Part shown: in pieces, positions 1-47,639 of the stretch | How positions within the stretch are numbered: the stretch's first letter is position 1 | Layout: each line of letters starts with the position of its first letter | IMG/VR virus record: IMGVR_UViG_3300042556_001883 | Span: 1-47,716 of that record | Source: a virus | Direction: 5' to 3' (one strand) | Length of the DNA stretch: 47,716 bases | Notes under the pieces: model-generated | What the model was told of the DNA's origin: nothing | Database searches by the model: none | What the model saw: the letters and a program-made list of their open reading frames with translations, nothing else | Translations under genes and position numbers: made by a program

Positions 1-185
1 ACTTGTCTTAAAATCTCCATCATTGTGTCGTCTGCTTCGATTACAATACCATCTTCCATTACATCAACAACATAAGTTTCAATTAAGGTTTCGTCTCTGG
101 CAATTTCTAAATCAAAATAATCGCCCACAGCAGGATCATTGAATGATTCTTCTACTTGTTCAATGTATTCTCTTAGAGTTTTCAT
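1..185 (-). CDS. Partial conserved phage protein with capsid-targeting-like N-terminus
   Basis: This is the first 61 codons of a minus-strand gene that runs off the left edge. The ATG (183-185) overlaps the TGA of the upstream gene in an ATGA arrangement, which suggests translational coupling. The N-terminus MKTLREYIEQVEE resembles the T4 capsid-targeting sequence of internal proteins (MKTYQEFIAE), which gp21 protease removes. It is followed by an acidic segment containing GDYFDLEI and ETYVVDVMEDGIVIEADD, which I recall as a module of unknown function in aquatic T4-like phages. Position at the end of a chain of large internal-type proteins supports a packaged head protein. The function is unknown and the C-terminus is not in the window. 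Confidence 0.75.
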   Translation of the reverse strand, partial: MKTLREYIEQVEESFNDPAVGDYFDLEIARDETLIETYVVDVMEDGIVIEADDTMMEILRQ

Positions 186-2299
186 CGCTTGATTCCTGGC
201 ACGGCTACAGGTGCTTTTGGTGCAGCTGGTTGTTTGGGTGCAACAGGAGCCTTGCCAACAGGACCTTCGTCAGGACTAGGAGGCTGAATACCAAGATCAG
301 CAGTGTAAATCTCTGCTTGTCCAGTATCACCTTTTGGTCTCTTCGGATCAGCTTCTTTTACTAATACACTGTTATACAATTCTTCAAACTGTTCTTCCAA
401 TGATATTCCTTCAGCCATTGGATTATCGCCTAGCTTGGGCTTGTCGGCGTATTGACGCTTTTCTCTATTCAAGTCATTGCCTTGTCTAGTGATACTTGCC
501 ACGCTTTGATATTCTTCGTCAGGAGTATTTTTGTATTTTGTTGCTCTAGTTTTCTTTGCTTCATCCATCATTTCTTGTTCAGACATAGACGCATGACGCA
601 ATTGTTTTGCCAATTGTTCTGCTCCATCTGCGTCCATTGTGCCATGAATTTCTATAGCACCTGGATGATCTAAATCTACGCCATCATCAGTGTTAAAACG
701 AGGTTTATCGCCCATGCCTGCCAGTTTCAACATGGCCAACAGTTCTTCGGCTTTTTCGCCTTGGGCACTGATGTTTACACTCTTGTTGCCATCGCTGCTC
801 ATGTTGGTGCTGACATTGATAGTGTCGCGTTGATCCATGCCCATGTCTCCGCATTCGTCTAGTTTGCTTTCAGTAAGACCGGCTAGATGTGCTAATTCGT
901 TCAATGTGTCGTCCATGACTGGTTGTGCAGTTTCGTTCATGCCGTTGCCTAGGTCACGCATGACATCATCGTAGAAACGCTCACTAACCCACTGATATGG
1001 ATCACCTTCTCTAGCTTTGGCCACACCGTATGGCATGTCGCCGCGATCCATGTAGTAGTCGTATAGTGCATCGTACAAATTCTCAGGCATAAAATCGCCT
1101 TCGATGAATCGTCTAACTTCGTGCTTGTATCTGTTGACAATGTGTTCTAGCGTGTGGCCATCTTCATCCAACATCAAGTGGATACCTTCATTGACCTTTT
1201 GTGGCAGGCCTTTGTGTTTGGTTTTAGCAAAGTCTCGTGCATCACTTTTGCTCATGCCCTTGGCTGCTTTTTTCAATTCTGGGCTAGCACCTTTGACCTT
1301 TTCGCCTTTTTGCATGGCATGCACCATGCCCATAAACTTCTGCTGTTGTTTACTAACTGCTTTTTCATTTAGAGCAAGACCGCTTAGGCGCATCATTTCA
1401 GCTAGTTCTTCTTCTAGATCTTCTTCCATTGCCATACCGCCCAAAGGCTTTTTGTTATCTGCTGCAATTTGATCAGGGGTTCTTGACACAAGATTAGTAG
1501 ATTGGCCAAAGCCGCCTGTTACAGGAACACCGCTGGCAGGCATAGCTGCTTGTGAGCCGCCTTGGCCTTCTGCGCCTGTAGCTGATTGAGCATAACCACC
1601 TGCTTTCGATGACGCTGCTACATTAACTGGTTCTGCTTTTGCTAACTCTGCTCGTCCAGCTGCCAAAGAGGGATCTGTTTCCGGATCGTAGTCGGGTGTT
1701 GGTGCTGCTGCAGGGACTCCACCTGCGGCTATTCCAGCTTTTGCTTGGTCTAGTGCTGCTGTAGTGCCTGCTGCTGGACCAGACGGTGCGGCCGCAGCAG
1801 GTGCTGCTGGTGTAGTTCCGCCTGCGAATCCTTGGGTGGGTGGAGCAGCATTTGGATCTCGCGCATTTGCTGTTCTAGTGTCTTGACCACCGTAGCTGCT
1901 AGTTTGCGTTTGTGCAGCGGTAGCTTGACTGCCTTTCATGGCATCAACAGGTGGTTTTTTACTAGGCAAGCCTCCGGCTCCTGTCTTCGACTGCACAGGA
2001 AATCCACTTGCTCCGGTACCAACTTTTTTATTTTGTCCTGGATCCTTTTGATAGGCAGGAGCGTTTGGATTACCCGGAAGTGGTTTTGGTGCGCCAGGCG
2101 CAACCACTTGACCGGCTCCGCCTCTAGCACCTCTTACTTGTGTATTTGGTGCTGTTGGTGCGGCTGCTGGCTGAGTGGCGGGTACTGCCCCTTGACCGCT
2201 TCTTACCGGTGTTGGTGCATTTCTCATCGCATATTGAGTGGCGAAATCTTGCTGTTCGTTTAGTATATCGCTATACATTCTAATTAATTTTGGATCCAT
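182..2299 (-). CDS. Large modular Ala/Pro-rich protein with DUF3008-like domain (probable internal virion protein)
   Basis: 705 aa, no overall function recognised. Residues 1-20 hold a short helix with ILNE. About 25-300 is low-complexity Ala/Pro/Gly/Gln linker. About 312-369 (KQQQKFMGMVHAMQKG through KHKGLPQKV) matches the pattern of DUF3008 proteins. About 370-455 is a helical domain with the signature DALYDYYMDRGDMPYGVAKA. About 490-570 contains NVSTNMSSDGNKSVNISAQG followed by LLAMLKLAGMG. The tail is again Pro-rich. The strings LNE and LTE recur (LALNEK, DDTLNEL, AGLTESK), which fits the L-x-E specificity of T4-type prohead protease. The start is an ATG with AAGGAA upstream, behind two tandem TAAATAG late-promoter-like elements. 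A packaged or ejected head protein is inferred from composition and context. Confidence 0.8.
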   Translation of the reverse strand: MDPKLIRMYSDILNEQQDFATQYAMRNAPTPVRSGQGAVPATQPAAAPTAPNTQVRGARGGAGQVVAPGAPKPLPGNPNAPAYQKDPGQNKKVGTGASGFPVQSKTGAGGLPSKKPPVDAMKGSQATAAQTQTSSYGGQDTRTANARDPNAAPPTQGFAGGTTPAAPAAAAPSGPAAGTTAALDQAKAGIAAGGVPAAAPTPDYDPETDPSLAAGRAELAKAEPVNVAASSKAGGYAQSATGAEGQGGSQAAMPASGVPVTGGFGQSTNLVSRTPDQIAADNKKPLGGMAMEEDLEEELAEMMRLSGLALNEKAVSKQQQKFMGMVHAMQKGEKVKGASPELKKAAKGMSKSDARDFAKTKHKGLPQKVNEGIHLMLDEDGHTLEHIVNRYKHEVRRFIEGDFMPENLYDALYDYYMDRGDMPYGVAKAREGDPYQWVSERFYDDVMRDLGNGMNETAQPVMDDTLNELAHLAGLTESKLDECGDMGMDQRDTINVSTNMSSDGNKSVNISAQGEKAEELLAMLKLAGMGDKPRFNTDDGVDLDHPGAIEIHGTMDADGAEQLAKQLRHASMSEQEMMDEAKKTRATKYKNTPDEEYQSVASITRQGNDLNREKRQYADKPKLGDNPMAEGISLEEQFEELYNSVLVKEADPKRPKGDTGQAEIYTADLGIQPPSPDEGPVGKAPVAPKQPAAPKAPVAVPGIKR

Positions 2300-2315
2300 C
2301 TTTGTTCCTTGGTTT

Positions 2316-2329
2316 CTATTTACTATTTA
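2316..2329 (-). promoter_or_regulatory. Tandem late-promoter-like elements (TAAATAG x2)
   Basis: On the minus strand two TAAATAG heptamers lie head to tail in the 38-base gap before the 705-aa gene. They differ from the window consensus TAAATAC only in the last base and are placed 17-30 bases before the ATG, with an AAGGAA ribosome site between. Confidence 0.5.
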
Positions 2330-2337
2330 ATCAATTT

Positions 2338-5325
2338 TTATTTCTTTAATCCTGCAAGCAGTTTTAGTCTATCCAAACTTTCGTTGGTGCGATTCACCAT
2401 CTGCTGAATACGATCTCTAGCCGCTGTAGCATCTACATCAATGTTGTCTGATGATGATGGCGTTGTAGACACATCGTCCGGTTTGGTAGTTGGTTTGTCT
2501 TTGCCGCGATTGTCCCAGTAGGTGTCAGGTAATTCTTGATTCACATTGGTGTCCACTGCGGGCTTGACCGGTGAGGGTTCTGGTCCTGGCCGATCTGGTT
2601 GAGGTTTGGGCGGTGTGGGTGGTTTTGGTGGTTTGGGTCCTGGGCCAGGTCCTGGAGGTTGTGGAGTTGGATCGGGTCCGGGCATAGGGCCTTGATCTTT
2701 GTCTCCAAGTTTCCCTAATCCATATCCAGCTGCTGCGCCGCCCAGTGCCGATAGTGCTGCTGTGGCAGTTCGACTCAAGGGCTTTCCACCTTTGGCTGCT
2801 GCTGCGGCCGCATCATCGGCCTTGCCTACTGCTGCTGCTGGTGCTGGAGGAGCTTCGCCTTTGCGCCACACAGCCGGCTTTTTATCACCAATATTTTTCA
2901 TATCACTGTATGATCTAATGTCTTTGGGATCGGCTCTGTTGACATATTTTAATTCGTTGCCAGCAAATGTTGAACCAGGTGGTCTAGGAACTGCGTCAAA
3001 AGTCTTACCACCACGACGCATGACACTGGCAGGCAGAGCTTCAGCGCCACCGCCTAGTCCTCGAAGCATGTTGGCAAATCTGGCCGCAGCACCAAAACGC
3101 TCTTTTAGCAGTGCAGTTTCGTGCAAGTTTTGAACCAGTTGCTTTTTGGTTTCTTCAAGACGGCTGATTCTTTTCTGTAATTGTTTTTTGTTCATGATTT
3201 TACTTCCTTCTTTCATTGGGTGGGCTGGTGGTTGTGCACCTTTGTCTTGGTCTACTGCTGCTTTTAGTTCTTCATCCGATGGGAAGAACGATCCGGTACG
3301 ATATTTGTCTCTTACTGCTTGTGCAGCAATGGCCGGAATTCCTAATACCGGAACAGCTCCTGCTGCTGATATGGCTGATCCTGTAGTATCACCTATGCTG
3401 GCTCTGCGTAGTGCATCAGCACCTTGATAGGCCACATTCAATCCTGGTAAGGCTTTAGCGGCAACACCGGCTACCTTGGGTGCAATACGACCTGCCATGC
3501 TGGCTCCGGCTGCGCCTAAGGCCCCAAGGCCGGTTACATCCGCGGCTGTGGTATATGGTGTTAGATTTTGTGCACCTCTAACAGCTGGCACTTCAGGAGT
3601 TGTAGGTGTTTTTCCTGGAGTCGCCGGCACTGTAGGTTTAGCACCTTGCCCGGTGTTCCCTGACTGTTGTTTAAAATAATTTGCTAGTGCCAAGTTGGCT
3701 TCAGCAGATCCGGCCTTGAACTTGCCAGCACCTAGCACTGAATCAACCTTGGCTTGATCTAATCTATCTGCTCTACTTGCAAATTGACCACCACTGGTTT
3801 TTGCTAATTCGGCACCAACTGTGCCTGGTATTTTTGCCTGCTCTTGCAGTTTGTATTGATTGTATGCTTCTGCCACAGCAGCAACTTTGGCTGGTGGAAC
3901 TAAAAATCTAGTATCGTCGGTAGTATCTTCACCGCGTTTGACTGCTTGTCTAAAAGCTTCATAATCAAATTGACCAGGAGCACCAGTTGGTACGGATGGT
4001 ACATCTGCGGCCGCTGTTTTTGGCTGTGCTACGATTGGTTCTATATTGGAAGCATCAGAAGTTTTATTTGCGGTAGGTGTCTTTGTAGCAGGCATTGCTG
4101 CTGCTCCTGCGGCACCTACTGCCGGCATTAGTTTTTCTACTGAAGCTAATTCTCTGGTTCCTAGTTTTGTTCCTGGAGCATAGGCACCGCCACCAATTTT
4201 TTGAATTACGGTTTGTGCAGCATCTCTAGAATTTTTGGCCTGATATTTGTCTAAACCAGCATTTTTTAGATACTGTAGTGATGCAGCTTTAGCTATTGCA
4301 GGATCCTTTAATATTAAATCTGGATCTTTAACTAACGCACCTTTAAGTCCTAGATCTCTATCTAATCGTGCGTAATTGGCTTTACCGGTAATTTGAATTG
4401 GTCCTCGACCGCGATATTGATAACCACCATATTTTGCATAAGCAGTATCAAAAAACTTTTGGTCGTTTTGTTTTAACGCATTCAGTTCTGCGTCACTGTA
4501 TTTTCTCAGTTGTGGAAGTTTTTCTCTGATTCTATCATTTGATGTATTTCTGTAAGAGAATTCGCCTACATTTTTTCCGCCCGATTCCCTAGATATTTTG
4601 GCCATGACAGCAGCTCTTACATTGGGGTCTGGAATAAATGCAAGGTCGTCGGCAGTTATAGTGTTTTCATTTAGAAAAAGTTCATACTTGCCTAAAACTT
4701 TTGTATACGCATCAGTTTCTCTTAGCTCGTCAAAACCTATACCTTTTGTTGGCAATGGTTTGATACCATCTGTGGGCATAGCAGCTTGTGATTTATCTTG
4801 TGCATCTTTATCAGCAAGTTTTGTATCGCTACCTGGATCAACTCCGGTGTATCCTCTAACCACACCTCTGGCAAATTCGCCGCCTTTTTCTGCAGCCCAG
4901 CCCAAGGCCTTGCCTGCCACATCCCCGGCAGTTTTTGCTCCTCTACCCACAAGGTCGCTTATTGGAGCGTTAGGATCTTTTAAATATTCATAGCCGGTTC
5001 CTAGGGCGGTGCCTCCAAGTGCTGTGCCAGCTGCTGTTTTTAACTTGTTTCTAAAAGGATATGTTACTGCATCTTTGGCTTTATCTATTATACCTTTGGG
5101 TTTTACATCAACAGCCGCAGCGGCGTCATCGGCTGCTGCAGGTGCCTTGCCTTGTTTGACCGCTTTTAATTGGGCTTTTTTTATTTCTGTATCGAGCCTG
5201 GCCTGTTTGATTGCTTCAATTTCTTTAGGCAAGGTAGTGCCATACTTGTAAGTCTGATAGGCACTCTTCAACTTTGATAAAGCCGATACGGGATTTACTA
5301 CCTCGTCAACCTTGCCTCGTTTCAT
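2338..5325 (-). CDS. Very large modular protein with GH19 lysozyme/chitinase-like domain
   Basis: 995 aa. An N-terminal helical/Ala-rich stretch (1-215) ends at ELFLNEN, a possible L-x-E protease site. About 222-400 is a glycoside hydrolase 19-type domain: KISRESGG carries the likely catalytic Glu247, and YRGRGPIQITGKANY (304-318) followed by LVKDPD is the family signature, so peptidoglycan cleavage is expected. Then come Ala/Pro linkers, a small-residue (Gly/Ala) hydrophobic stretch near 600-670, a coiled-coil-like segment beginning MNKKQLQKRISRLEE (711), a Pro/Gly-Lys tract near 880-925, and a C-terminus LDRLKLLAGLKK resembling that of gp22. The ATG lies three bases after the previous stop. 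A sharp internal ribosome site precedes Met711. An internal head protein ejected with DNA, or a baseplate/tail lysozyme, are both possible; I favour the former from its neighbours. Confidence 0.8.
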   Translation of the reverse strand: MKRGKVDEVVNPVSALSKLKSAYQTYKYGTTLPKEIEAIKQARLDTEIKKAQLKAVKQGKAPAAADDAAAAVDVKPKGIIDKAKDAVTYPFRNKLKTAAGTALGGTALGTGYEYLKDPNAPISDLVGRGAKTAGDVAGKALGWAAEKGGEFARGVVRGYTGVDPGSDTKLADKDAQDKSQAAMPTDGIKPLPTKGIGFDELRETDAYTKVLGKYELFLNENTITADDLAFIPDPNVRAAVMAKISRESGGKNVGEFSYRNTSNDRIREKLPQLRKYSDAELNALKQNDQKFFDTAYAKYGGYQYRGRGPIQITGKANYARLDRDLGLKGALVKDPDLILKDPAIAKAASLQYLKNAGLDKYQAKNSRDAAQTVIQKIGGGAYAPGTKLGTRELASVEKLMPAVGAAGAAAMPATKTPTANKTSDASNIEPIVAQPKTAAADVPSVPTGAPGQFDYEAFRQAVKRGEDTTDDTRFLVPPAKVAAVAEAYNQYKLQEQAKIPGTVGAELAKTSGGQFASRADRLDQAKVDSVLGAGKFKAGSAEANLALANYFKQQSGNTGQGAKPTVPATPGKTPTTPEVPAVRGAQNLTPYTTAADVTGLGALGAAGASMAGRIAPKVAGVAAKALPGLNVAYQGADALRRASIGDTTGSAISAAGAVPVLGIPAIAAQAVRDKYRTGSFFPSDEELKAAVDQDKGAQPPAHPMKEGSKIMNKKQLQKRISRLEETKKQLVQNLHETALLKERFGAAARFANMLRGLGGGAEALPASVMRRGGKTFDAVPRPPGSTFAGNELKYVNRADPKDIRSYSDMKNIGDKKPAVWRKGEAPPAPAAAVGKADDAAAAAAKGGKPLSRTATAALSALGGAAAGYGLGKLGDKDQGPMPGPDPTPQPPGPGPGPKPPKPPTPPKPQPDRPGPEPSPVKPAVDTNVNQELPDTYWDNRGKDKPTTKPDDVSTTPSSSDNIDVDATAARDRIQQMVNRTNESLDRLKLLAGLKK
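3193..3209 (-). promoter_or_regulatory. Internal in-frame ribosome binding site and ATG
   Basis: Inside the 995-aa gene the minus strand reads AAGGAAG (3203-3209), seven bases, then ATG (3193-3195), in frame. It is as good a ribosome site as those of the window's annotated starts. Use would give a 285-aa C-terminal product beginning with a Lys-rich coiled-coil-like segment. It may be a second product or the relic of a gene fusion. Confidence 0.5.
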
Positions 5326-5328
5326 TGT

Positions 5329-7224
5329 TTAGTCTTTGGGCTTTTTGAAACTAAACTTGGCTCCGCCGCCGGTGCCCTTGGGACGACCTTTTTTCTTTTC
5401 TACTGGCTTACCTTCGCCGTCTGTTTCTTCGTCATCGTCTTTTTGTGCTGAACCACCGTAACGTGTACCTGCCTTCTTGCCTTCACCACCTTTGGATTGA
5501 GGGCCTTTTTTCTTGTCAAGGTACTTTTGCATCTCTTCCCAACCTTCACGCATGGTGCTGGCACCTTTACTGACTTTTTCCATGTCGCCGTCGCCGTCTA
5601 GGTCAGCCTTGTCTAATCCTTGTGCTCTAGCTTTCATTAGATTGCCGGAGAATTTATTACCTTCAGTTTTCTTGCCTTTTTTGGCACCAGCAATTTTGTC
5701 AGCGTAGGTAATTTTATCTTTAGGCTCTGCTAGTGCTGCAAAACTCTTTTGCTTGGGACTCAGCATGTCTTCATTGTAACTACCTTCGTCTGTTTTCTTA
5801 CGATAAACATCTACCGGACCATGCTTGCTACCTTTCTTAGGTAAATGCACTTCATCTGGTGGAGAAGGCAATTGATCACCTTCATCCATTGGACCTTTAA
5901 CTGCTTTATCCAACATAGCAGCAGCATGTTGTAGATAATCAGTTAGGTCATACTGTTGGATATGACGAGCAATATTGCCACCACGCATTGGTGCTATGCC
6001 ATCTTGTTCACTACCAACACTGGCATTATCAACTAAGTCAAGATACTTTCCAATTACTGCTCTAGCCTTTTTAAACTCGGGCGATCGATTGCTACCAAAA
6101 GTAGCATTCAAGACATCTGTCAGGTTGTCGACAGTTCTTCCTGGGTTATTGATTTCTTGTTCAACCGCAGCCAATAGATCTGCTGGTCCTTCTTGATCTG
6201 CGCTTGCTTCGCCTATTGGACCTTTAACTGCTTTATCTAACATAGCAGCGGCATGTTGTAGATAATCAGTTAGGTCATATTGTTGGATATGACGAGCAAT
6301 ATTGCCACCACGCATTGGTGCTATGCCATCTTGTTCGCTGCCCATTGCTGCATTATCGACCAGATTAATATACTTGCCAATTACAGCACGAGCTTTTTTA
6401 AATTCAGGAGAACGATCGCTACCAAAAGTAGCATTCAAGACATCTAATAGATTATCAATACTTCGCCCTGGGTTATTGATTTCTTGTTCTACGGCAGCCA
6501 ATAGATCTGCTGGTCCTTCTTGATCTGCGCTTGCTTCGCTCATTGGACTAACTGCTTTATCCAACATAGCAGCAGCATGTTGTAGATAATCAGTTAGGTC
6601 ATATTGTTGGATATGACGAGCAATATTGCCACCTCTCATTGGAGCAATACCATCTTCTTCACTACCAACACTGGCATTATCAACTAAGTCAAGATACTTT
6701 CCAATCACTGCTCTAGCTTTTTTAAATTCAGGTGATCTGTCAGAGCCAAATGTTGCATTTAGTACATCTCTCAAGTTGTCGGTACTGCGGCCAGGTCTAG
6801 CAATTTCTTGTTCAATCGCAGCCAATAGATCTGCTGGTCCTTCTTGACCTACAGCTTCATCCATTTTATCATGTTTGGCACGAATCTTGGCCATTTTTTC
6901 TTTGCTGGCACCATCACGGCCAGCTTGTTGTAATGCCTTCATTCCAGTTTCGCCGTATTTCTTTTTACCTAGGTATGCTTGTAGACCACTTTCTTCTACA
7001 TTGCCTTCTTTCATGGCTTTTTTATAACCATGAAACTTTTCGCTTAACTGTTTTTCGACTTGCGCAACTGCTTCAGCAATCGTGCCTTTACGAGTCTGTT
7101 TTTCCTTCTTGCTTTCATTGTGCAATTCCTTAACGGTCGTCATCTTACTTTCAGTAAGATTGGTTTTCTTTGGAGCCTCAAGGCTTTCAATTTTCTTTAG
7201 GATATCATAGATATTGTTGCTCAT
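5329..7224 (-). CDS. Modular protein with three near-identical ~108-residue repeats
   Basis: 631 aa, no known function. A charged N-terminal region (1-126) includes NLTESK, a possible L-x-E site, and KKKYGETGMKALQQAGRDGA. Residues 127-448 are three tandem modules of 108-109 residues, each starting QEGPADLLAA and ending YLQHAAAMLDKAV, with internal EFKKARAVIGKY and GIAPMRGGNIARH. The C-terminal third has MLSPKQKSFAALAEPKDKI, a calcium-loop-like DLDGDGDM at 541-548, and a Lys/Gly-rich basic tail that could contact DNA. The ATG overlaps the TGA of the 208-aa gene. An internal virion protein is inferred from the basic, modular character and neighbours. Confidence 0.8.
   Translation of the reverse strand: MSNNIYDILKKIESLEAPKKTNLTESKMTTVKELHNESKKEKQTRKGTIAEAVAQVEKQLSEKFHGYKKAMKEGNVEESGLQAYLGKKKYGETGMKALQQAGRDGASKEKMAKIRAKHDKMDEAVGQEGPADLLAAIEQEIARPGRSTDNLRDVLNATFGSDRSPEFKKARAVIGKYLDLVDNASVGSEEDGIAPMRGGNIARHIQQYDLTDYLQHAAAMLDKAVSPMSEASADQEGPADLLAAVEQEINNPGRSIDNLLDVLNATFGSDRSPEFKKARAVIGKYINLVDNAAMGSEQDGIAPMRGGNIARHIQQYDLTDYLQHAAAMLDKAVKGPIGEASADQEGPADLLAAVEQEINNPGRTVDNLTDVLNATFGSNRSPEFKKARAVIGKYLDLVDNASVGSEQDGIAPMRGGNIARHIQQYDLTDYLQHAAAMLDKAVKGPMDEGDQLPSPPDEVHLPKKGSKHGPVDVYRKKTDEGSYNEDMLSPKQKSFAALAEPKDKITYADKIAGAKKGKKTEGNKFSGNLMKARAQGLDKADLDGDGDMEKVSKGASTMREGWEEMQKYLDKKKGPQSKGGEGKKAGTRYGGSAQKDDDEETDGEGKPVEKKKGRPKGTGGGAKFSFKKPKD
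5881..6846 (-). repeat. Three tandem ~325-bp coding repeats
   Basis: Copies at about 6523-6846, 6196-6522 and 5881-6195 (units of 324-327 bases) are highly similar in DNA as well as protein. The block reading attgccaccacgcattgg, for example, is identical in two copies and slightly changed in the third. Conservation at silent sites points to recent duplication or ongoing homogenisation. Confidence 0.9.
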
Positions 7225-7847
7225 TTGTTCTTTCCTTTAACGGGTGGTAATTTGTTTTGTTGGCTTCCTACTGGGCTCTTGGTGCCTTGTGGCAATTGAT
7301 TGGTTGTTTGTGCATTAGGAGTTCTTTCCTTGGCACGAGTTGAAACTAGTTCTGCGTCTGATTCCAATGCGACCATTTTTGGACTTTGTTGATCCAATTC
7401 TTTCAATAAACTGTCTTTGCGTTTGTCGCCTACTAGATCTTGACCGCCTGGCACATCCTTGAGTTCGCTGTCTAGCAGCAATGAACCGGTATGATCTTTA
7501 CCATAAGCCTCAAAGGCATCATTGTCGTCGGCCTGTTGCTTGCCGTAAACACACACCCACTCGGCTTGCATACCGGTGCGTTCTCTTAACAATTGATAAA
7601 TTTGAGGGCTTGTCACTGGGTATGCAACTGTGGCTTCAAACTGCCAGCATTCGCAAGGTCCCCATTTTGGGAATTCTCTGTGCTCTTGTATTGGCAAGCT
7701 TTTAGGTGCAGTAATATCTACCAGCTGGTATGCATCAAGAGCATTTTTGATTTCTTCCATGATATCCTTAGGATTTTGTTTGGCAATTTTGATCCTGAAA
7801 GAGTAGTTGGAGTTTCGTTCGGCTATATAATCGTGAAGACTTTTCAT
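7221..7847 (-). CDS. Conserved phage protein with capsid-targeting-like N-terminus and ferredoxin-like domain
   Basis: 208 aa. It opens MKSLHDYIAERN; T4 internal proteins begin MKTYQEFIAE and are cut after the Glu, so IAE followed by R is an attractive processing site. Residues 15-105 alternate strand-helix-strand-strand-helix-strand (YSFRIKIA, DIMEEIKNALDAY, QLVDITA, CWQFEATVAYPV, SPQIYQLLRERTG, WVCVYG), as in a ferredoxin-like fold. Residues 120-208 are polar, Gln/Lys/Pro-rich and probably disordered. It follows a late promoter at 7869-7875 with CAGGA before the ATG, and leads the chain of large internal-type proteins. Packaging in the capsid is inferred; the biochemical role is unknown. 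Confidence 0.8.
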   Translation of the reverse strand: MKSLHDYIAERNSNYSFRIKIAKQNPKDIMEEIKNALDAYQLVDITAPKSLPIQEHREFPKWGPCECWQFEATVAYPVTSPQIYQLLRERTGMQAEWVCVYGKQQADDNDAFEAYGKDHTGSLLLDSELKDVPGGQDLVGDKRKDSLLKELDQQSPKMVALESDAELVSTRAKERTPNAQTTNQLPQGTKSPVGSQQNKLPPVKGKNK

Positions 7848-16196: not shown

Positions 16197-16571
16197 TCAA
16201 ACGCCGTATTTGTTCTTTTTAGGTTTGGCCACTGGACTGCTTTTATTAATTGTAGGGCCTTCTTGACTACGTAAGTCTCCGTGATTCATGTCTTCATGAT
16301 TGGCATGAACTGCTTTGTAAGCCAATTTGAGCATTTCTTGTTCTTCTTGGCTGTAAGGCGCTGTCAGTTTCCACTTGCCAAGCCAAGATTCTTCATCAAC
16401 TTCGGGCATGGTTTTGCCATCAGTGGCAGCTAGTGCCAATCCTAGACGGTATAGTGTGTAATCGCTGTTCCATTTTTTGCCGTCGGTAAATCTGTTGAGT
16501 CCTCTAGTTGCTCGGCGTTGGCGGTCACTGAGTTCGCCCACACTTTCTTGTATGATATCTTTAATCTTCAT
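16197..16571 (-). CDS. Conserved T4-like phage protein of unknown function
   Basis: 124 aa. It begins MKIKDIIQESVGELSDRQRR, again reminiscent of the short helical N-termini of packaged T4 proteins, though less close than the two at 185 and 7847. The middle (YTLYRLGLALAATDGKT, then ESWLGKW and YSQEEQEMLKLAYKAV) looks helical, and the end is Lys/Pro-rich (KPKKNKYGV). I recall close relatives in aquatic T4-like phages, annotated only as hypothetical. It shares one base with the gp13 stop (TAATG), so it is coupled to the neck protein and is likely a virion or assembly factor. Confidence 0.75.
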   Translation of the reverse strand: MKIKDIIQESVGELSDRQRRATRGLNRFTDGKKWNSDYTLYRLGLALAATDGKTMPEVDEESWLGKWKLTAPYSQEEQEMLKLAYKAVHANHEDMNHGDLRSQEGPTINKSSPVAKPKKNKYGV

Positions 16572-39988: not shown

Positions 39989-41095
39989 TTAGTATTTATT
40001 AAGAAGTTTATCAAAATGCTTGATGCACAATTGATCAATGGCATCACTATAAAAGTAATCTTGATTGGCTTGCAATCTAGCTTGTGTTTCCGGAAGATGA
40101 AAAAATTCTGTAAAGTTTGTGGTATATAATTTATCTATCAGCTGATGTACACGATCAATTCTCATAGTAAAATTTTCTGGCACTCGCCAATCATTTATTT
40201 GTAAATCATCGTAATTGTCGTGATTTATAAAATCATAGAATAAATCAAAACCTAAATATTTTAATGCTTCAGCTGCACGAATAGCAGCCAAATAAACTGG
40301 AATTTGTTTTGCTATAAAAGGCTTGTATGATTTTTCTGAAAGTATAGGTACTTCCATTGTATGTTCCATGACTAAATTACAATAGGAGTTTAAATGCACA
40401 GGAAATAACGTGCTATGCGGATTATCATACGTTTCAAATTTATCATAATCATATGTATAATAGGGAAGATTGCACTTAATTTCGTTATTCCATAGTTCTA
40501 GCTGTGTTGCATTCAGACCTGGTAAGTGTAATTGATCAAACACATTAAAAGGGCAATGTTCATTATTATACATTGTTGTTAACCAATCTGCCCTGCGCCT
40601 ATGATAACATTCAATGTAGTTGTATATTTTTTCAGTTCTATAATTTGATCTATTGCCACACGAAAAATTATATTTCCGCTCAACTGCAAAATCATAATTA
40701 AGATATTTGTTATCTTTTGCCCATTTTTTTTGTCTAAAGTACCAGTCTGGGTGAAATGTAAATTTAGAATCAATTTGATCTAACCATAATTTGTAATCAG
40801 AAGTAAAAAAACCACAAGGTAAATTCAAATCATCTGCACAATTTACTATTGATGATTTTCTTTGTTGGTAAAGTTCATCATCAGGAAAAAATGGATGACT
40901 TTCTACAACAATCAGTAATGATGCTGTATCTTTTGCCCATTGTAAATGATTTGGCAACGTTTTTTCAAATTCTTTATCAAACATACAATTGTCAAAATCA
41001 AACATGGTTACTTTATTACTTTCTACCCATGCAGATATCAACGGTGAACTATCTTTAAAATTACATTCTAAATAATCGTAGTAATAGTGTTTCAT
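39989..41095 (-). CDS. Glycosyltransferase-like protein (second of a pair)
   Basis: 368 aa, AT-rich coding. The C-terminal part at about 235-300 contains NLVMEHTMEVPILSEKSYKP, IPVYLAAIRAAEALKYLGFD and LFYDFINHDNYDDL. This E...(S/T)EKxxxP...LGFxxFxxFI arrangement matches the 334-aa gene and phage/giant-virus glycosyltransferase-like families I recall. The N-terminal half has VTMFDFDNCMFDKEF and Trp/Tyr-rich stretches. The ATG overlaps the stop of the SGNH gene upstream. Likely transfers or binds sugars of the host envelope or of the virion; donor and acceptor cannot be read. Confidence 0.65.
   Translation of the reverse strand: MKHYYYDYLECNFKDSSPLISAWVESNKVTMFDFDNCMFDKEFEKTLPNHLQWAKDTASLLIVVESHPFFPDDELYQQRKSSIVNCADDLNLPCGFFTSDYKLWLDQIDSKFTFHPDWYFRQKKWAKDNKYLNYDFAVERKYNFSCGNRSNYRTEKIYNYIECYHRRRADWLTTMYNNEHCPFNVFDQLHLPGLNATQLELWNNEIKCNLPYYTYDYDKFETYDNPHSTLFPVHLNSYCNLVMEHTMEVPILSEKSYKPFIAKQIPVYLAAIRAAEALKYLGFDLFYDFINHDNYDDLQINDWRVPENFTMRIDRVHQLIDKLYTTNFTEFFHLPETQARLQANQDYFYSDAIDQLCIKHFDKLLNKY
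39992..39998 (-). promoter_or_regulatory. Late promoter of the 160-aa gene (TAAATAC)
   Basis: TTAATAAATACTAAG on the minus strand overlaps the TAA stop of the glycosyltransferase-like gene. It leaves a leader of roughly 75 bases that holds a small inverted repeat (gctct/agagc, 39969-39984). Confidence 0.6.
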
Positions 41096-41976
41096 TATAA
41101 TTTTATTTTTTCAAACAAATATTCTGCAAATCTTTGATGGCCCATATCATTAGGATGCCATGAACTACCTTTAATATTATACCAGCTCGCATCAAAAAAA
41201 TTATATCTTGCTGTAATTTTTTCTTCAATTTCAATGAAATTGTTTTTCATTATGTTTTTTTGATAGGTACAAGAATCTATTAATTTTGTAATACCGCCAA
41301 TGGCCATTTGACCAATAAATGGAACAACTTTATGATAACGATCAAACTTTACTTCGTCTTGAAAAACATCACACCAAGTTTGATCTAAAATTTCTTTGTA
41401 TAAATTTTTATTTTCTGGCCAAAAATCAGTAAACGCTCTAGTAATATAATGTTCAACTTCTATATCATTTAGTACTTCTTGGAAATTTTTAATTAGGAGA
41501 TTTTCCGCTCTGCTTAAAAAATTAAATAAGTCTTTAGTATCAGCAATTAACGAATAATATGGTAAAAAGTATACTAATTCTTCATGATAGTTAAATTCTC
41601 TAAAATCTTCAGTAAGCACCACAGTGATAATTATTCTACGATATTTAGATTTTAATAGTTTTATTTGATTAGCAAATAACTTTAATTTATCTAACATCCA
41701 ATAATTACTACATCCCGGTCTAGCCAATAATATCCAATCTGCCTTAAGTTTTTCAGATAATTTTTTTCCATACACAGTATGCAATCTTACTGGATCATCA
41801 TATATATCAATCCAATTTATCTTGCCAAGATGATCTCCCCAAGTCCAACTGTCGCCTACAGTAATCAATAAAGTTTCATTGTTTTGATTTTCTTCATGTA
41901 ACCAATATAGTTCTGTATCTGTGCCTACTATTGGATAACCTGTAGCTATGTCCGCAGTATTAAATATATTATTCAT
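41095..41976 (-). CDS. SGNH/GDSL-type hydrolase (second copy)
   Basis: 293 aa. SGNH block I is VGDSWTWGD (nucleophile Ser43) and block V is HPNDMGHQ (about 274-281, catalytic His). Between them are RPGCSNYWMLDKL (block II-like Gly/Asn) and IIITVVLTEDFREF. Such enzymes remove acetyl or acyl groups from glycans, or act as acyltransferase partners. There is no signal peptide, so it would act in the infected cytoplasm or as part of the virion. It has no clear ribosome site. It overlaps the 334-aa gene by eight bases and the 368-aa gene at ATGA-type junctions, showing tight coupling. Confidence 0.75.
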   Translation of the reverse strand: MNNIFNTADIATGYPIVGTDTELYWLHEENQNNETLLITVGDSWTWGDHLGKINWIDIYDDPVRLHTVYGKKLSEKLKADWILLARPGCSNYWMLDKLKLFANQIKLLKSKYRRIIITVVLTEDFREFNYHEELVYFLPYYSLIADTKDLFNFLSRAENLLIKNFQEVLNDIEVEHYITRAFTDFWPENKNLYKEILDQTWCDVFQDEVKFDRYHKVVPFIGQMAIGGITKLIDSCTYQKNIMKNNFIEIEEKITARYNFFDASWYNIKGSSWHPNDMGHQRFAEYLFEKIKL

Positions 41977-42973
41977 TGAAAAGTGTTAATATTGATCTAT
42001 CGTAATCTAAAATGTTAAGTTGATTTCTATTGTGCTGAATTATGTCAAAATTATCTTTATATAATTTATTCAATGGTAATTTTAATACATCTTTAACACA
42101 TTTTTTAAACACAGCAAATCTCCAGCGCACATCTTCTATGTTATCATAAGAATAGTCTATAAAATCAGGAAAACTAAATCCTAAATTTCGCAATCTTTCT
42201 ATAGTACCTGGGTTAGCGAATGGCATTATAAAATGTCCTTTTAACAAAGGTTCAAATGTTTTCTCAGTAATATGAATAAGATTAGTTTGAACACAATTAC
42301 TTTCAACATATACACTAAGAAATGTATCGTCGTAAAATTTATTAGATATTGGTCTAAACGATCCGGCTGTATCATTGTCGTCAAACGTTACACCCAATGA
42401 GCGCATACTGCTGTATCCCTGGTCAGCATAGTCTTGTAAAAAAGAATACAAGTCTAGTCTATATCCATAACCTCTACCACATAAATTTAAAAAAGTTTTT
42501 GTTCGTGGCCTGTCAGCATTTAATTCATTTAAAATGTAACTGGTGTGACCTGCATAATGATGCAGTATTAGATCTAACGATCTTACATATTCCTCGTCTA
42601 TATCTGTGTAATATAGTTTAGATCTATTCCACATAAAGTCCCACCGCAACACATTAACATTTTCTAATGCAAAATTTTTACTAAAGTTATTAGTTAAGTA
42701 CCATTTGTTCAAATGAGGAAAATTTTTAATAAAACTACAAAAATTGTCTATGTATTCATCACCGTGATTGACTAGGTCATAAAAAACCACGCGACTGTAA
42801 TTCTGAGCTGCATTTGTAACTAATTCTTCCCATCCTTGTGTATGTAATCCATAATGATCATTCAATGATATAAAGAATGTGTCTTTGATATCTTTTACAT
42901 CGTGCCCTAAAATTTCTAGATGACAAGGTATATCAAAACCTTCTACACCGTTAATTACTGTAATTTTTCTCAT
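41969..42973 (-). CDS. Glycosyltransferase-like protein (first of a pair)
   Basis: 334 aa. The conserved part is near 220-280: VESNCVQTNLIHITEKTFEP, LLKGHFIMPFANPGTIERLR, LGFSFPDFIDYSYDNIED. The ESN...TEKTFEP...PGT...LGFxFxxFIDxSYD pattern occurs in phage and giant-virus glycosyltransferase-like proteins. The N-terminal part has ITVINGVEGFDIPCH and a Tyr/Asn/Asp-rich sequence. Coding is AT-rich. It overlaps SGNH genes on both sides (23 bases at its start, eight at its end). Paired with the 368-aa paralogue. Confidence 0.65.
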   Translation of the reverse strand: MRKITVINGVEGFDIPCHLEILGHDVKDIKDTFFISLNDHYGLHTQGWEELVTNAAQNYSRVVFYDLVNHGDEYIDNFCSFIKNFPHLNKWYLTNNFSKNFALENVNVLRWDFMWNRSKLYYTDIDEEYVRSLDLILHHYAGHTSYILNELNADRPRTKTFLNLCGRGYGYRLDLYSFLQDYADQGYSSMRSLGVTFDDNDTAGSFRPISNKFYDDTFLSVYVESNCVQTNLIHITEKTFEPLLKGHFIMPFANPGTIERLRNLGFSFPDFIDYSYDNIEDVRWRFAVFKKCVKDVLKLPLNKLYKDNFDIIQHNRNQLNILDYDRSILTLFNE

Positions 42974-43652: not shown

Positions 43653-43669
43653 ATAGTTACTTATCCAAC

Positions 43670-43692
43670 AAAAAAGCGCCTTACGGCGCTTT
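43670..43692 (-). terminator. Intrinsic terminator after gp23
   Basis: AAGCGCC/GGCGCTT stem with four-base loop, followed by six T residues on the minus strand. It lies between the gp23 stop and the SGNH gene, ending the capsid transcript. Confidence 0.95.
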
Positions 43693-43716
43693 AATGTTTC
43701 CCATCCCGAGTGGAAA

Positions 43717-44913
43717 TTACTGGAACGATAGGTTAGAAACAGCAATCTCACCTAGGTAGTCAGCTGCGTTACCAAACGATGATGCTGTGTTTGTTAACTC
43801 AACATAACCGTAACGAGTCATAAAGCCAACGACTGGTTCAAATGTGCTTGGATCTAGAACAACGCCAGAGCTCATTAGAGGGATATATGGGCAGTAGAAC
43901 GCGGCTGCATCAGCCTCGCTTGAACCCTTATAACCAACTAGAACTGCTTGGCTATCGCTAGCATAGCTGTCAACATAGATACGCATTGCGCCGTTTAGTG
44001 TACCAACAAACTTGGTGTTGGTAGGAGCTTCAAAGGTACCTTCAGTTGTACGAGCAAATGCTGAAGTAGTTGCGCTCTGTAGTACAGTTAGAGCTGCTGG
44101 ACTTACAACTGCCCAGTTACCAGCGCCACGACGTGTACGTGAAGCGATTAGGTTTGCTGTACGGTTGATTAGAACAGCTAGTGCAGCATGCTCGTCACCA
44201 ACGAATGTAGCAGTACCGCTAACAGCAGCTTGGTCGAATGTGAATTCGGTAGCGGCTAGGCTACGTAAAGAACCTAGGATCTCTTGATCAATCTCAACTG
44301 TGATCTCTTGTGCAAGAGCAGCCATGATTTCTGCTTCGATGTCCAAACCGTGCATGGCTTGTGCATCTTGTGCAGCTTCAAAAGTCCAGCGAGCTGATAA
44401 CTTACGAGTCTTAGCTTCTACAACTTGCTTCAAGATTTGTACATTGATACGGTTACCAGGTACGCCTTCTAGAGTAGAAGTAGTAGCTGCCTTACCAGTT
44501 GTAGCTGTACCACCTGGAATTAAACCAGAGTAAGCAACAGCAATCTTGAATGGGCTTAGTGCTTCATCACCAGCTGTAGTACCAGTAGCATATGGGCTAG
44601 CGGTATCAGTGGTGTTGTCTGCATAACGAACACGTAGTGTGTGGATCTGTGCAACAGGTCCAGTCATTGGCTGAACACCAACGATTTCGTTTGCAATAAC
44701 TGTTGGCATAACACGACGAATCACTGGTAGAATGACTCGGTTCAGTGTTGCAACGTTTGAAGCGGCTGTGGCACCAGCTGTAGCTGCTTCCATCAAGTGC
44801 TTGCGAGTGTTTTCTAAGATTACACCCATTGTGGTTCTTTTAGAACCGTTTAAGCCTTCTAACAGAGCGTCTTTAGTATCGCCCCAACGGCTTTCTAGTA
44901 ATGCTTGTGTCAT
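43717..44913 (-). CDS. gp23: Major capsid protein gp23
   Basis: 398 aa, shorter than T4 gp23 (521 aa) and typical of aquatic T4-like phages. Builds the capsid hexamers. Landmarks: MGVILENTRKHLMEAATAGA, where T4-type gp21 cleavage after Glu42 would remove a 42-residue propeptide; RVILPVIRRVMPTVIANEIV with GVQPMTGPVAQI; SARWTFEAAQDAQAMHGLDI followed by EAEIMAALAQEI; GNWAVVSPAALTVLQSAT; and a C-terminal PVVGFMTRYGYVEL. Codons look richer in G+C than in the fibre and glycan modules. It has a strong AGGAG-type ribosome site and a late promoter, with a terminator behind it. It follows gp22 as in T4. Confidence 0.97.
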   Translation of the reverse strand: MTQALLESRWGDTKDALLEGLNGSKRTTMGVILENTRKHLMEAATAGATAASNVATLNRVILPVIRRVMPTVIANEIVGVQPMTGPVAQIHTLRVRYADNTTDTASPYATGTTAGDEALSPFKIAVAYSGLIPGGTATTGKAATTSTLEGVPGNRINVQILKQVVEAKTRKLSARWTFEAAQDAQAMHGLDIEAEIMAALAQEITVEIDQEILGSLRSLAATEFTFDQAAVSGTATFVGDEHAALAVLINRTANLIASRTRRGAGNWAVVSPAALTVLQSATTSAFARTTEGTFEAPTNTKFVGTLNGAMRIYVDSYASDSQAVLVGYKGSSEADAAAFYCPYIPLMSSGVVLDPSTFEPVVGFMTRYGYVELTNTASSFGNAADYLGEIAVSNLSFQ

Positions 44914-44940: not shown

Positions 44941-46047
44941 TTACTTTAGCCCTGCCAAACGCTTGATCTCAAAAACATTGTGAATGTTTTCTTCAACTAC
45001 AGGTGTATTAGCAGATTTATCACCAGTTACTTCTACACGACTTTCGCTGAGCATAGTTTTTGGCTTGCTTTCAACTTTTGCCGAGTTGTGAAGTACAGCT
45101 GGTAGATACTTTTCATATGCGCCCTGCAACTTAGCAGTTTGCACACTTTCAAGAAGTTCGCTCATGACTACAGCTTTCTCCTTGTTTAAAGGTTTCAATA
45201 GATTAGCAAGAATTTCCTTGCGCTCTGTTGATTCTTTAATAATCTTAATCTCTTTGTCTTTTGATTCAACAATCATTGCAGCCTGTTCAGCAACTTGTTT
45301 AGCTTCCGCTAAGGCTTGCTCTTTGGCAGCAACAACAGCTTGTAGCTTGCGAATTTCTTTGTTCTCATTTAAGTGAGTTACAGCAAATTCACTTGCAAAA
45401 GCTTCAAAGATCTGACGGCCAAACATGTTCTCACGAGCAAGTTGGATATCTTCTTTGAGTTGAGTCATTTCTGACTCTAGTTTCTTGGTAATTGACTCTT
45501 TAACTAGTTCTGCAGATCTAGCGATGAAATTCTGTTGTAGTTCAGCAAGCTTGTCTTTAGCACCAGCAATTAGACGAACTTTTGTCTCAACCACTGCCTG
45601 CTTGTCTTGCTCAAACTCTTGAATTTCTTCTGCTAGTGACTTGATCACAAATGATTCTAGCTTGCTTACACTATTCTCATATTGCTTGCGATCTTCGCGT
45701 AGTTCTCTAATTTCTTCAGCCAGTTTACCGACCATGAAATCATTGAACTTGGTACTGCTTTCCATCATGTGAACTTTAAATTTCGCACGATCCTCTGCTA
45801 GAGCTTGTTTCTCTGCTGCGAACTCTTCGAGTTCGTTTTGGAGACTTTCAGTTACCATTTTGTCTAGAGCTTCAACCATAACTTGTTTGTCATGTTGGTA
45901 TCTTTGAGCGAATTCTTCACGAAGTTCTGCGCGAACAGTTTCGCGAGCTTCAAGAAGTTTTGCTTCCCATGCTTCGCTAATTGCTTGCTTAGTATCTTCG
46001 TTTATGATGCCGCTGTCTACCAATGGTTTGATAGCATCTAATAACAT
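44941..46047 (-). CDS. gp22: Prohead scaffold (core) protein gp22
   Basis: 368 aa, almost wholly charged helix and coiled coil (for example REEFAQRYQHDKQVMVEALD, REDRKQYENSVSKLESFV, REFEQ-like Glu/Lys stretches), with DAIKPLVDSGIINEDTKQAI at the start. Scaffold that shapes the gp23 shell and is degraded by gp21 during maturation. The gene order core-gp21-gp22-gp23 is the T4 order. The C-terminus NVFEIKRLAGLK carries an LAGL motif also found at the end of the 995-aa protein and inside the 705-aa protein, perhaps a shared capsid or core contact. Good AGGAGA ribosome site. Confidence 0.9.
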   Translation of the reverse strand: MLLDAIKPLVDSGIINEDTKQAISEAWEAKLLEARETVRAELREEFAQRYQHDKQVMVEALDKMVTESLQNELEEFAAEKQALAEDRAKFKVHMMESSTKFNDFMVGKLAEEIRELREDRKQYENSVSKLESFVIKSLAEEIQEFEQDKQAVVETKVRLIAGAKDKLAELQQNFIARSAELVKESITKKLESEMTQLKEDIQLARENMFGRQIFEAFASEFAVTHLNENKEIRKLQAVVAAKEQALAEAKQVAEQAAMIVESKDKEIKIIKESTERKEILANLLKPLNKEKAVVMSELLESVQTAKLQGAYEKYLPAVLHNSAKVESKPKTMLSESRVEVTGDKSANTPVVEENIHNVFEIKRLAGLK

Positions 46048-46057
46048 CAGGTTTCTC

Positions 46058-46699
46058 CTATTTTAACTTAAGGTCTTTGATTAGGCGTGTTATGCCTTCT
46101 TTCAGGTACTTCTGTACTTTTTGATCTTGTGTGGCATCACGAGCCACATCTAACACTCGGTGTCCATGACGCATATTCATCAAGCTCTCATAGATTGCTT
46201 TGGGATATGCATGCGGAGCCGAAGGCTGTGCTACGATGTCAACGGTAATGATATCAAAACCACTAACATGTCCTGTACTCTCATTCACTTCACCTGAACC
46301 ACGGCTACTAACGCCTAGCTTAACACCACTAGTTAACATAGCTTCAACTAGTTTACCCATTGGTGTTGGTAGAATTTTTAGTTTACCGTGACCACAAGGA
46401 CCGTCCATCCACATACCTTCAATCATATGTGACACACGATCCAAATTAATCTTTAGGTCATCAGGGTGATCAACTTCACCAAGAACACTGTGTCCGCTCT
46501 TGATTTGCTCGTTGACCTGTGTTACGGCTTTTTCAATTTCAGAAACAGGATAAACACGTTGGTTGGCATTTTTCACGCCGCCCTCAATGAATATCCCTTT
46601 CATATATAGATTCTTACCCTGACCGTTCGTAGAGTCTTCGGACAAGACTTCTATCTGCGCCCGGTCAAAAGTAAGATCTTCTTTTAGGTACAAAGCCAT
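46058..46699 (-). CDS. gp21: Prohead core protease gp21
   Basis: 213 aa, the usual T4 gp21 length. Serine protease of the herpes-type fold that digests scaffold and trims capsid proteins after L-x-E/I-x-E sites. Visible features are MKGIFIEGGVKNANQRVYP (33-51), GEVDHPDDLKINLDRVSHMI with catalytic His78, KLGVSSRGSGEV with the Ser132/133 pair, and GFDIITVDIVAQPSAPHAYP completing the active site. The C-terminus is helical and basic. A modest AGGGC ribosome site precedes the ATG, 13 bases after the core gene. Confidence 0.93.
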   Translation of the reverse strand: MALYLKEDLTFDRAQIEVLSEDSTNGQGKNLYMKGIFIEGGVKNANQRVYPVSEIEKAVTQVNEQIKSGHSVLGEVDHPDDLKINLDRVSHMIEGMWMDGPCGHGKLKILPTPMGKLVEAMLTSGVKLGVSSRGSGEVNESTGHVSGFDIITVDIVAQPSAPHAYPKAIYESLMNMRHGHRVLDVARDATQDQKVQKYLKEGITRLIKDLKLK

Positions 46700-46712: not shown

Positions 46713-47639
46713 TTATTTGCCACCTTGTTCAATACTTGTTTTGTTAACAGGTACGGAACCATCGGTAGTTTGCCCTTCGCCTGCTTTTGCTTTTGCTTTG
46801 TTAGCAAATGCATTGCCAGCTTTTGCTCCTGGAACATTTTCAAACTTACCAGCACCTGGTAGGTCTTTGGTTGTGCCTTTCTTTGGAGCACTTGTGCCGT
46901 CTGGTGCGCTTTCGCTTGCACCTTGAGCTAAGTTCTTAGCTGTACCGCCCATATCATTCTTGCCTGCCACTGTTGACTGGGTGTTAACATTTGCATGATC
47001 GCCACCTGCGCTAGTACCTGCTGGTTGACCTTCTGTGTTGCTAGGTGAGCTGATTTTTTCTACATATTCACGCATTAGATCTACTGCGGTTTTCTGTAGC
47101 GGACGACGCTGCTTGGATTCGTATACAGATTCTGACATTTCTTCATCTTCTTCATCTTCGTCTTCTTTTTCAGCTTCCATCATTGCGAAGTTTTCTTCCT
47201 CTTCTTCGCCTTCTTCACTGTCCATGTCGCCCATGTCCATATCGTCCATGTCGCCTTCTTCGTCGCCCATTAGCTGTTCAAATTCAGCCTTTAGTGCTTC
47301 TAGCTCGCTCTCTAGATCCATAACTTTTTGCTCTAGATTTTCTTCGCCACCAACATCAGCATGATGATCATCATCGCCCATGTCCATGTCGCCCATGTCC
47401 ATGTCGTCATCTTCGCCTTCGCCGATTCCGTCTGTTTCGTCCATTGCAATTTCGTCTACCATGCTTTCAACTTGATCGCCACCTAAAGAACCATGCATGC
47501 TTTCTTCGGCGTACTCATCGTCCATTAGACTTTCGTATATATCTCGTGATTTTTCAACCACGATTTCGTGGAACAACGCACGAGCTTTACCTTCCTCGTC
47601 GTTGATAATGTGTTCAATTAGCTGTTCATATTTGTTCAT
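46713..47639 (-). CDS. Acidic prohead core protein (gp68/gp67-like)
   Basis: 308 aa. The N-terminus MNKYEQLIEHIINDEEGKAR followed by ALFHEIVVEKSRDIYESLMD matches the start of T4 gp67/gp68 core proteins (LI..I...D...A+.LFE..). Residues 50-160 are extremely acidic Asp/Glu/Met repeats (DDDMDMGDMDMGDDDHHADV), with a coiled coil at about 103-125. After ESVYESKQRRPLQKTAVDLM the tail is Gly/Ala/Lys/Thr-rich. It is much longer than T4 gp68. Position immediately before gp21 is exactly that of gene 68. AAGGAGT ribosome site. Likely part of the scaffold core, perhaps cleaved to acidic peptides kept in the head. Confidence 0.8.
   Translation of the reverse strand: MNKYEQLIEHIINDEEGKARALFHEIVVEKSRDIYESLMDDEYAEESMHGSLGGDQVESMVDEIAMDETDGIGEGEDDDMDMGDMDMGDDDHHADVGGEENLEQKVMDLESELEALKAEFEQLMGDEEGDMDDMDMGDMDSEEGEEEEENFAMMEAEKEDEDEEDEEMSESVYESKQRRPLQKTAVDLMREYVEKISSPSNTEGQPAGTSAGGDHANVNTQSTVAGKNDMGGTAKNLAQGASESAPDGTSAPKKGTTKDLPGAGKFENVPGAKAGNAFANKAKAKAGEGQTTDGSVPVNKTSIEQGGK

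Follow-up and report, generated by a model that had tools for sequence, protein, structure and literature searches.

In bacteriophage T4, the internal proteins join the core by way of a capsid-targeting sequence (CTS), and the gp21 protease strips these leaders and destroys the core (PMC5694885). In the T-even phages, the CTS of the internal proteins is conserved and the payloads that follow it are diverse (PMC3012670). Here we describe a block of genes in IMG/VR record IMGVR_UViG_3300042556_001883 (positions 1 to 47,716; this whole stretch is termed the window), which covers part of the structural genes of a giant T4-like phage. The products of this block carry N-terminal leaders resembling the T4 CTS, and a second signal, missed in an initial annotation of the window, is a helix of the form L-x-x-L-x-x-LAG (the LAG helix) that is common to the gp22-like scaffold and to the 995- and 705-amino-acid (aa) proteins. 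On balance, it is probable that the block encodes head cargo that mimics both ends of the scaffold, is trimmed by gp21 and is ejected with the DNA.

The putative cargo shares with T4 IPI, IPII and IPIII (and Alt) a hydrophobic N-terminal peptide of approximately 10 to 20 aa ending in a gp21 site. The T4 internal proteins are small (95 to 193 aa) and are known anti-restriction factors, whereas the proteins described here are of 200 to 1500 aa, are multi-modular and include cell-wall hydrolases; a C-terminal scaffold-like LAG helix, often seen on the latter, is absent from those of T4. Phage T7 gp16 is a murein hydrolase that is stored in the head and ejected, and is comparable by role, as a cell-wall hydrolase travelling in the head and leaving with the DNA; we know of no gp21-type processing or scaffold-like ends for hydrolases of this type. 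In SPN3US and phiKZ, head proteins, including ejection proteins, have N-terminal propeptides that are cut by the prohead protease and have been proposed to act in head targeting (PMC5694885), but these propeptides are mostly long, the sites are AxE or SxE, there is no confirmed counterpart of gp22 and the payloads (virion RNA polymerase) are unrelated. The DarB protein of P1 is very large, depends on an N-terminal signal of 30 residues for loading into the head and is believed to be injected (PMC9024508); P1 is, however, a different type of phage and DarB has an anti-restriction role. Packaged cargo processed by gp21 is already known, while the LAG label, the two-ended architecture and a slot in which hydrolases are swapped appear to be undescribed in the literature searched.

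Head assembly genes of the window

The 47.7-kb record is a whole viral contig with genes mostly on the minus strand, which is also the strand of every window feature located below. The window encodes both a gp21-like head maturation protease (46058..46699; phrog_207, E=1.2e-56) and a gp22-like scaffold (44941..46047; phrog_10922, E=2.6e-88, with relatives annotated as scaffold), the protease and core pairing that goes with T4-type internal head proteins bearing a CTS. A gp67-like acidic/basic core protein (46713..47639) was assigned from its position and N-terminal similarity, and the gp23 major capsid protein (43717..44913; phrog_138) has a predicted maturation cut between LME42 and AAT (44788-44796). 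This gp23 site stays LxE from T4 (LTE) through the clade of the window (LME, LVE and LRE), indicating that the protease specificity assumed here is reasonable. The window also encodes tail tube, gp4 and other T4-type genes. The scaffold shares 42% identity with its counterpart in the jumbo phage PA5oct of Pseudomonas and 34 to 36% with the scaffolds of two other jumbo phages, Atu_ph07 of Agrobacterium and Phosso of Sinorhizobium. A nucleotide search of the phage collection detected no near relative of the window; the block itself is common to many IMG/VR contigs.

Capsid-targeting-like N-termini and candidate gp21 sites

The initial annotation had likened the N-termini MKTLREYIEQVEE (gene 3..185) and MKSLHDYIAERN (gene starting at 7847) to the T4 leader MKTYQEFIAE and had regarded MKIKDIIQESVGE (16571) as a weaker match. 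All three peptides are present at these places. N-termini of the 39 window genes were scored over residues 2 to 10 (BLOSUM62) against those of ipI, ipII and ipIII from the T4 record. The two genes first singled out were the closest, with the 208-aa gene (MKSLHDYIAE) ranked first and the gene at the window end (MKTLREYIEQ) second, and 0.05% of shuffled N-termini (a fraction of 0.0005) reached either score. In related loci, scores of at least 22 were obtained for 54 genes against 2.2 expected, the nearest relative N-terminus being MKNFQEYLAES as compared to MKTYQEFIAEA in T4. A hydrophobic leader resembling that of T4 is, hence, present in the 208-aa and truncated 61-aa genes and conserved in their families, and leaders are closed by [LI]xE in the 208-aa (IAE10), 705-aa (LNE15) and 124-aa (IQE9) proteins.

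The gene at 3..185 comprises the first 61 aa of a putative cargo protein of ∼180 aa that is cut by the window end. The window copy, MKTLREYIEQVEE, has no [LI]xE at position 10, against most of its relatives, which keep the site (N-termini among them include MKSFREYLQE, MKSLKDYIAE and MKIRDVIIE). There is a precedent for this variant in T4 ipI, in which position 10 is likewise without a site and ITE occurs at 19. N-termini of the ∼180-aa family alternate between an MKSLKEYIAE type and an MKIRDVIIE type, which suggests from sequence that the two types are equivalent. The peptide at 16571 (MKIKDIIQE), belonging to a 124-aa protein (16197..16571), would then be a member of the second targeting-like type, as found in PA5oct gp333 (MKINDIITE) and gp246 (MKIKDILVE), rather than merely a weaker match.

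The 208-aa protein (7221..7847; N-terminal peptide at 7818..7847) consists of the capsid-targeting-like helix, a predicted ferredoxin-like domain and a disordered tail. Placement of this protein by its fold was rejected, as the ferredoxin-like AlphaFold2 model had only weak and generic Foldseek matches in the PDB (ribosomal S6, PII and HPPK), and a match to a T4-like 'Ip7' in BFVD was similarly weak (E=0.0019, TM 0.25/0.43).

Repeated L-x-E triplets had also been taken as gp21 sites: ILNEQ, LALNEK, DTLNEL and GLTESK in the 705-aa protein, FLNEN in the 995-aa protein and NLTESK in the 631-aa protein, all of which are present. Comparison with shuffled sequences, which had been suggested as a check, gave a mixed outcome. 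The three large proteins contain 21 [LI]xE triplets against 12.7 expected (p=0.013), a modest excess driven by the 705-aa protein (9 against 3.6, p=0.0065), with a borderline value for the 995-aa protein (7 against 3.9, p=0.08) and no excess for the 631-aa protein (5 against 5.3). The excess of L[NT]E was higher (6 against 0.76, p=0.0002), N and T having been picked post hoc after inspection of the data. Raw counts were, therefore, rejected as proof, being too weak overall and nil for the 631-aa protein.

As a sequence-based measure, conservation is a far stronger test than the raw counts. For families of the syntenic block, N-termini with less than 70% mutual identity were searched for an [LI]xE closing at residues 7 to 18, and the numbers were compared to shuffles of the same residues. 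The motif was kept in 7 of 9 members of the 208-aa family (1.2 expected), 12 of 14 of the 705-aa family (1.2), 15 of 23 of the 180-aa family (6.5), 11 of 20 occupants of the 995-aa slot (3.2), 7 of 8 of a DPRFF family with DPRFFRRYLDIL[DG]E (0.44) and, over residues 7 to 28, 9 of 11 of the 631-aa family (3.4). No excess was observed in the same test for the staphylococcal nuclease (SNase), TerL and 69-aa families. Several of the proposed sites are thus conserved despite divergence; DTLNEL and GLTESK belong to the LAG element and, being in or beside it, are weaker candidates for cleavage.

A LAG helix shared with the scaffold

The scaffold ends in VFEIKRLAGLK, and an AlphaFold2 model consists of a long rod, a disordered linker (residues 320-355) and a short helix (356-364) bearing the LAG motif (VFEIKRLAGL, 44947..44976). 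The C-terminus of the 995-aa protein, SLDRLKLLAGLKK, is of the same kind, with the motif LDRLKLLAGL (2347..2376) followed by KK and the stop codon. The only other LAG-type matches in the window, for a total of five, are the LAEMMRLSGL (an LSG variant, 1376..1405), LNELAHLAGL (875..904) and LLAMLKLAGM (713..742) motifs of the 705-aa protein, the last of which closes a conserved NVSTNMSSDG...ISAQG segment. KRLAGL is invariant in 27 scaffold relatives; PA5oct, Atu_ph07 and Phosso retain the scaffold tail, which is degenerate in Vibrio 2.275.O, CBB and 121Q. Across 2534 open reading frames (ORFs) of related loci, 197 LAG instances were detected against 4.0 in shuffles, a comparison in which families are over-counted.

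A profile was trained on the C-termini of the slot proteins described below, with gp22 left out. With this cargo profile, gp22 scored best among the 687 C-termini of Phosso and among the 420 of a second genome (G004). It came second among 449 in a third genome (G001), where the 480-aa family scored higher, and second among 40 in the window, where a training-like member was placed above it. As the gp22 proteins are mutually homologous, the ranks do not amount to independent tests. The LAG helix may have the shell, the scaffold, the protease or the portal as its partner.

An exchangeable cell-wall hydrolase slot

The 995-aa protein (2338..5325) lies between the 631-aa and 705-aa families and contains an endolysin or GH19 lysozyme-chitinase domain at aa 231-443 (3997..4635; phrog_181, E=1.3e-17; PF00182, E=3e-6, 27.6 bits against a cutoff of 25.5; PDB 9ms6, the PWe1 endolysin, E=6.6e-7). 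Occupants of this position in relatives are of ∼500 to 1500 aa and very different, carrying SLT transglycosylases, GH19 domains or an endolysin with a GDSL lipase, some with LysM, and for many of them no similarity to the 995-aa protein could be detected across most of their length; this exchangeability was not recognized in the initial annotation. A gp22-like C-terminal L[AS]G helix, the proposed scaffold tail, is nevertheless present in the 995-aa protein and in 15 of 18 distinct slot proteins. Approximately half of the slot proteins have a targeting-like start closed by [LI]xE within 18 residues (MKIKEIIDE, MKANEIIGE and MKISDITNE, for example), with others having this triplet slightly later. 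The persistence of both features across dissimilar payloads indicates that the ends of the slot protein are constant while the enzyme varies. Shortly upstream of the catalytic domain is the LNE site of FLNEN (4666..4674); six related slot proteins, whose catalytic domains are of other kinds, have VTE, VNE, LTE or LDE in a similar position.

Modules of the 705-aa and 631-aa proteins

The 705-aa protein (182..2299) is mostly of low complexity and contains a DUF3008 module in addition to the three LAG-type motifs. Its N-terminal peptide, MDPKLIRMYSDILNE (2255..2299), has a predicted gp21 cut after E15. A second candidate site, LALNE/K (LNE at 1364..1372; the slash marks the predicted cut), immediately precedes the DUF3008 module at aa 314-371 (1187..1360), which was detected with PF11450 at E=0.0027, under the curated cutoff, and with five PHROGs at E≤7e-7. 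Sixty distinct DUF3008 contexts were collected from IMG/VR loci and cyanophages. A hydrophobic-x-E/K[AS] sequence precedes all 56 internal copies, with four IME or MTE cases counted as internal, and the other 4 of the 60, from cyanophages, open with a start methionine at this point. Replacement of the site by a start codon is as would be expected of a cut creating a new N-terminus. Literature searches on DUF3008 and on the LAG peptides found no relevant match.

The 631-aa protein (5329..7224) has an N-terminal MSNNIYDIL helix, a candidate LTE site at aa 23-25 (7150..7158) after the N-terminal segment and three tandem repeats of ∼108 aa (5890..6843). A partial Pfam match of the repeats to Ntox14 (E=6.6e-11) was rejected as evidence of a toxin, since only positions 77-144 of the 218 in the profile are covered and the match lies inside the tandem repeat. 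The copy number of the repeat varies, with one or none in other relatives. No solved structure was matched by sequence for either this protein or the scaffold.

Mass spectrometry notes in PA5oct

Entries for several PA5oct proteins carry notes of detection by electrospray ionization tandem mass spectrometry (ESI-MS/MS). The record is silent on the sample; these notes were taken to refer to virions because the same entries call the proteins structural. Notes are present for gp282, which is distantly homologous to the 208-aa protein (E=3e-5; Phosso gp408, E=1e-12), for gp278, a homologue of the 480-aa protein (E=2e-29), for the LAG-bearing gp281 and gp249, and for gp333 and gp246, with their N-termini of the second type. 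No note accompanies the scaffold gene, as would be the case for a scaffold that is degraded. Through the homologues of the 208-aa and 480-aa proteins, these notes give indirect support to a head location for the putative cargo.

Among these proteins, gp249 (L281:10222-10848) is itself of 208 aa and combines a targeting-like N-terminus (MNKIKLEQILKE) with a LAG motif. It lies within a run of approximately ten PA5oct proteins of unknown function with ESI-MS/MS notes (gp245-gp258), possibly further head cargo.

Proposed mechanism and alternative explanations

The earlier interpretation, a chain of packaged head proteins processed by gp21, stands in part: the protease, the scaffold and the gp23 L-x-E site are of T4 type, leaders with [LI]xE are conserved and a homologue of the 208-aa protein has an ESI-MS/MS note. 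From these features we infer packaging, cleavage, a binding role for the LAG helix and ejection, as follows. The hydrophobic leader, short and closed by a gp21 site, would act as does the T4 CTS, and several cargo proteins would add a helix akin to the C-terminal tail of gp22, so that both cargo ends imitate scaffold ends and the proteins co-assemble into the prohead core. The gp21 protease would then strip the N-terminal peptides and cut linkers ahead of the DUF3008 and cell-wall hydrolase modules, freeing cargo to exit the head together with the DNA. The exchangeable peptidoglycan hydrolase of the 995-aa slot may help the DNA across the cell wall, and the presence of such an enzyme among the cargo makes ejection likely. 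A role in host takeover, as proposed in the initial annotation, found no support, while a role in entry is plausible in the case of the 995-aa protein, because of its peptidoglycan hydrolase domain.

More tentatively, and with somewhat less than even confidence, we propose that the LAG helix acts as a portable label, common to cargo and scaffold tail, that gives the address of the head, that both scaffold ends serve to load varied enzymes and that hydrolases are swapped in one slot. If these proposals are correct, the T4 capsid-targeting principle would extend to giant T4-like phages, a second, C-terminal loading label would exist and head cargo among giant-phage proteins of unknown function would be predictable from sequence alone. 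They would also explain how a cell-wall-opening enzyme is swapped without redesign of the head, and would provide a natural two-ended tag for enzyme loading into phage heads, the counterpart of engineered loading of cargo by scaffold tails.

Several observations weigh against head cargo with two scaffold-like ends. Both gp32 and a 164-aa protein retain an N-terminal LxE, so that the motif alone is not specific, and a loose N-terminal [LI]xE was rejected as a predictor of detection by mass spectrometry in PA5oct (4 of 24, no enrichment). PA5oct gp282 and Phosso gp408 lack [LI]xE at position 10. A homologue of the 995-aa protein was not identified in PA5oct, in which the slot appears to be empty. 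The gp22 proteins of T4 and S-PM2 have no LAG, indicating that this helix is not needed for T4-type scaffolding generally, and the cargo profile ranks PA5oct gp22 only 4th of 446 C-termini. In four large or complete genomes, 3 to 7 LAG-type matches were seen and 1 to 3 are expected by chance. Equal weighting of all LAG matches was rejected for this reason, and weight was given instead to a position at the C-terminus and to the cargo-trained profile; strictly C-terminal LAG matches in these genomes were in gp22 and in the 480-aa virion protein or a similar-sized C-terminal match.

One alternative for the LAG helix is that it docks the gp21 protease, or the gp20 portal, and delivers heavily cut substrates rather than binding shell or scaffold. 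The helix is found on gp22, the most heavily cut protein of T4, and on proteins with candidate gp21 sites, which it directly adjoins in the 705-aa family (LSGLALNE/K and LAGLTE/S). Its absence from gp23 and the gp67-like protein, which are also expected substrates of gp21, argues against this explanation, which is unlikely but deserves consideration. Alternatively, the proteins may be cut and packaged but then remain in the head, where they would condense DNA or build the core. The 631-aa protein and DUF3008 are examples of tails and modules that are basic and disordered and that would, judging from their sequences, suit DNA binding, but a peptidoglycan hydrolase has no evident purpose in a head unless it leaves, and retention without any injection is similarly unlikely.

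Less probable still is a tail or neck location for the set or part of it, the cell-wall hydrolase in particular. The genes have gp4, gp53-like and tail-tube genes as neighbours, lysozymes are common in tails and, in other jumbo phages, proteins with related endolysin domains have been annotated as belonging to the tail. A scaffold-like C-terminus and a targeting-like N-terminus argue against such a location, as do the match of the neighbouring 480-aa LAG protein to a 'head and packaging' family and the presence in PA5oct of a separate annotated T4-type tail lysozyme. Coincidence, in which LxE and LAG arise by low complexity in ordinary amphipathic termini of disordered acid-rich proteins, fits the modest (for the 631-aa protein, nil) excess of raw LxE counts but is largely refuted by conservation amid divergence, placement at exact termini in unrelated families and the first- to fourth-place ranks of gp22 among all C-termini of four genomes, and is very unlikely.

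Other genes of the block and window

In relatives, the block continues just past the point corresponding to the window end with an SNase-like protein that has a signal-peptide-like start, MKKLFAVLLL... (L198:3727-4161 and L201:10299-10733). A conserved 69- to 70-aa protein without a family match opens with a LAG motif, MDSIEELKLLAGIGNRAVMQE... (L201:10946-11158 and L200:12250-12459). Two window proteins with GDSW motifs (GDSWTWG, 41095-41976, and GDSWTFG, 42951-43751) appear by eye to be SGNH/GDSL-hydrolase-like; they are sited between gp23 and the tail-fibre genes, and the second ORF has 35 bases in common with the end of the gp23 gene. PA5oct gp212 (L281:35350-36021), far from the gp21 gene, is annotated as a second head maturation protease and has an ESI-MS/MS note.

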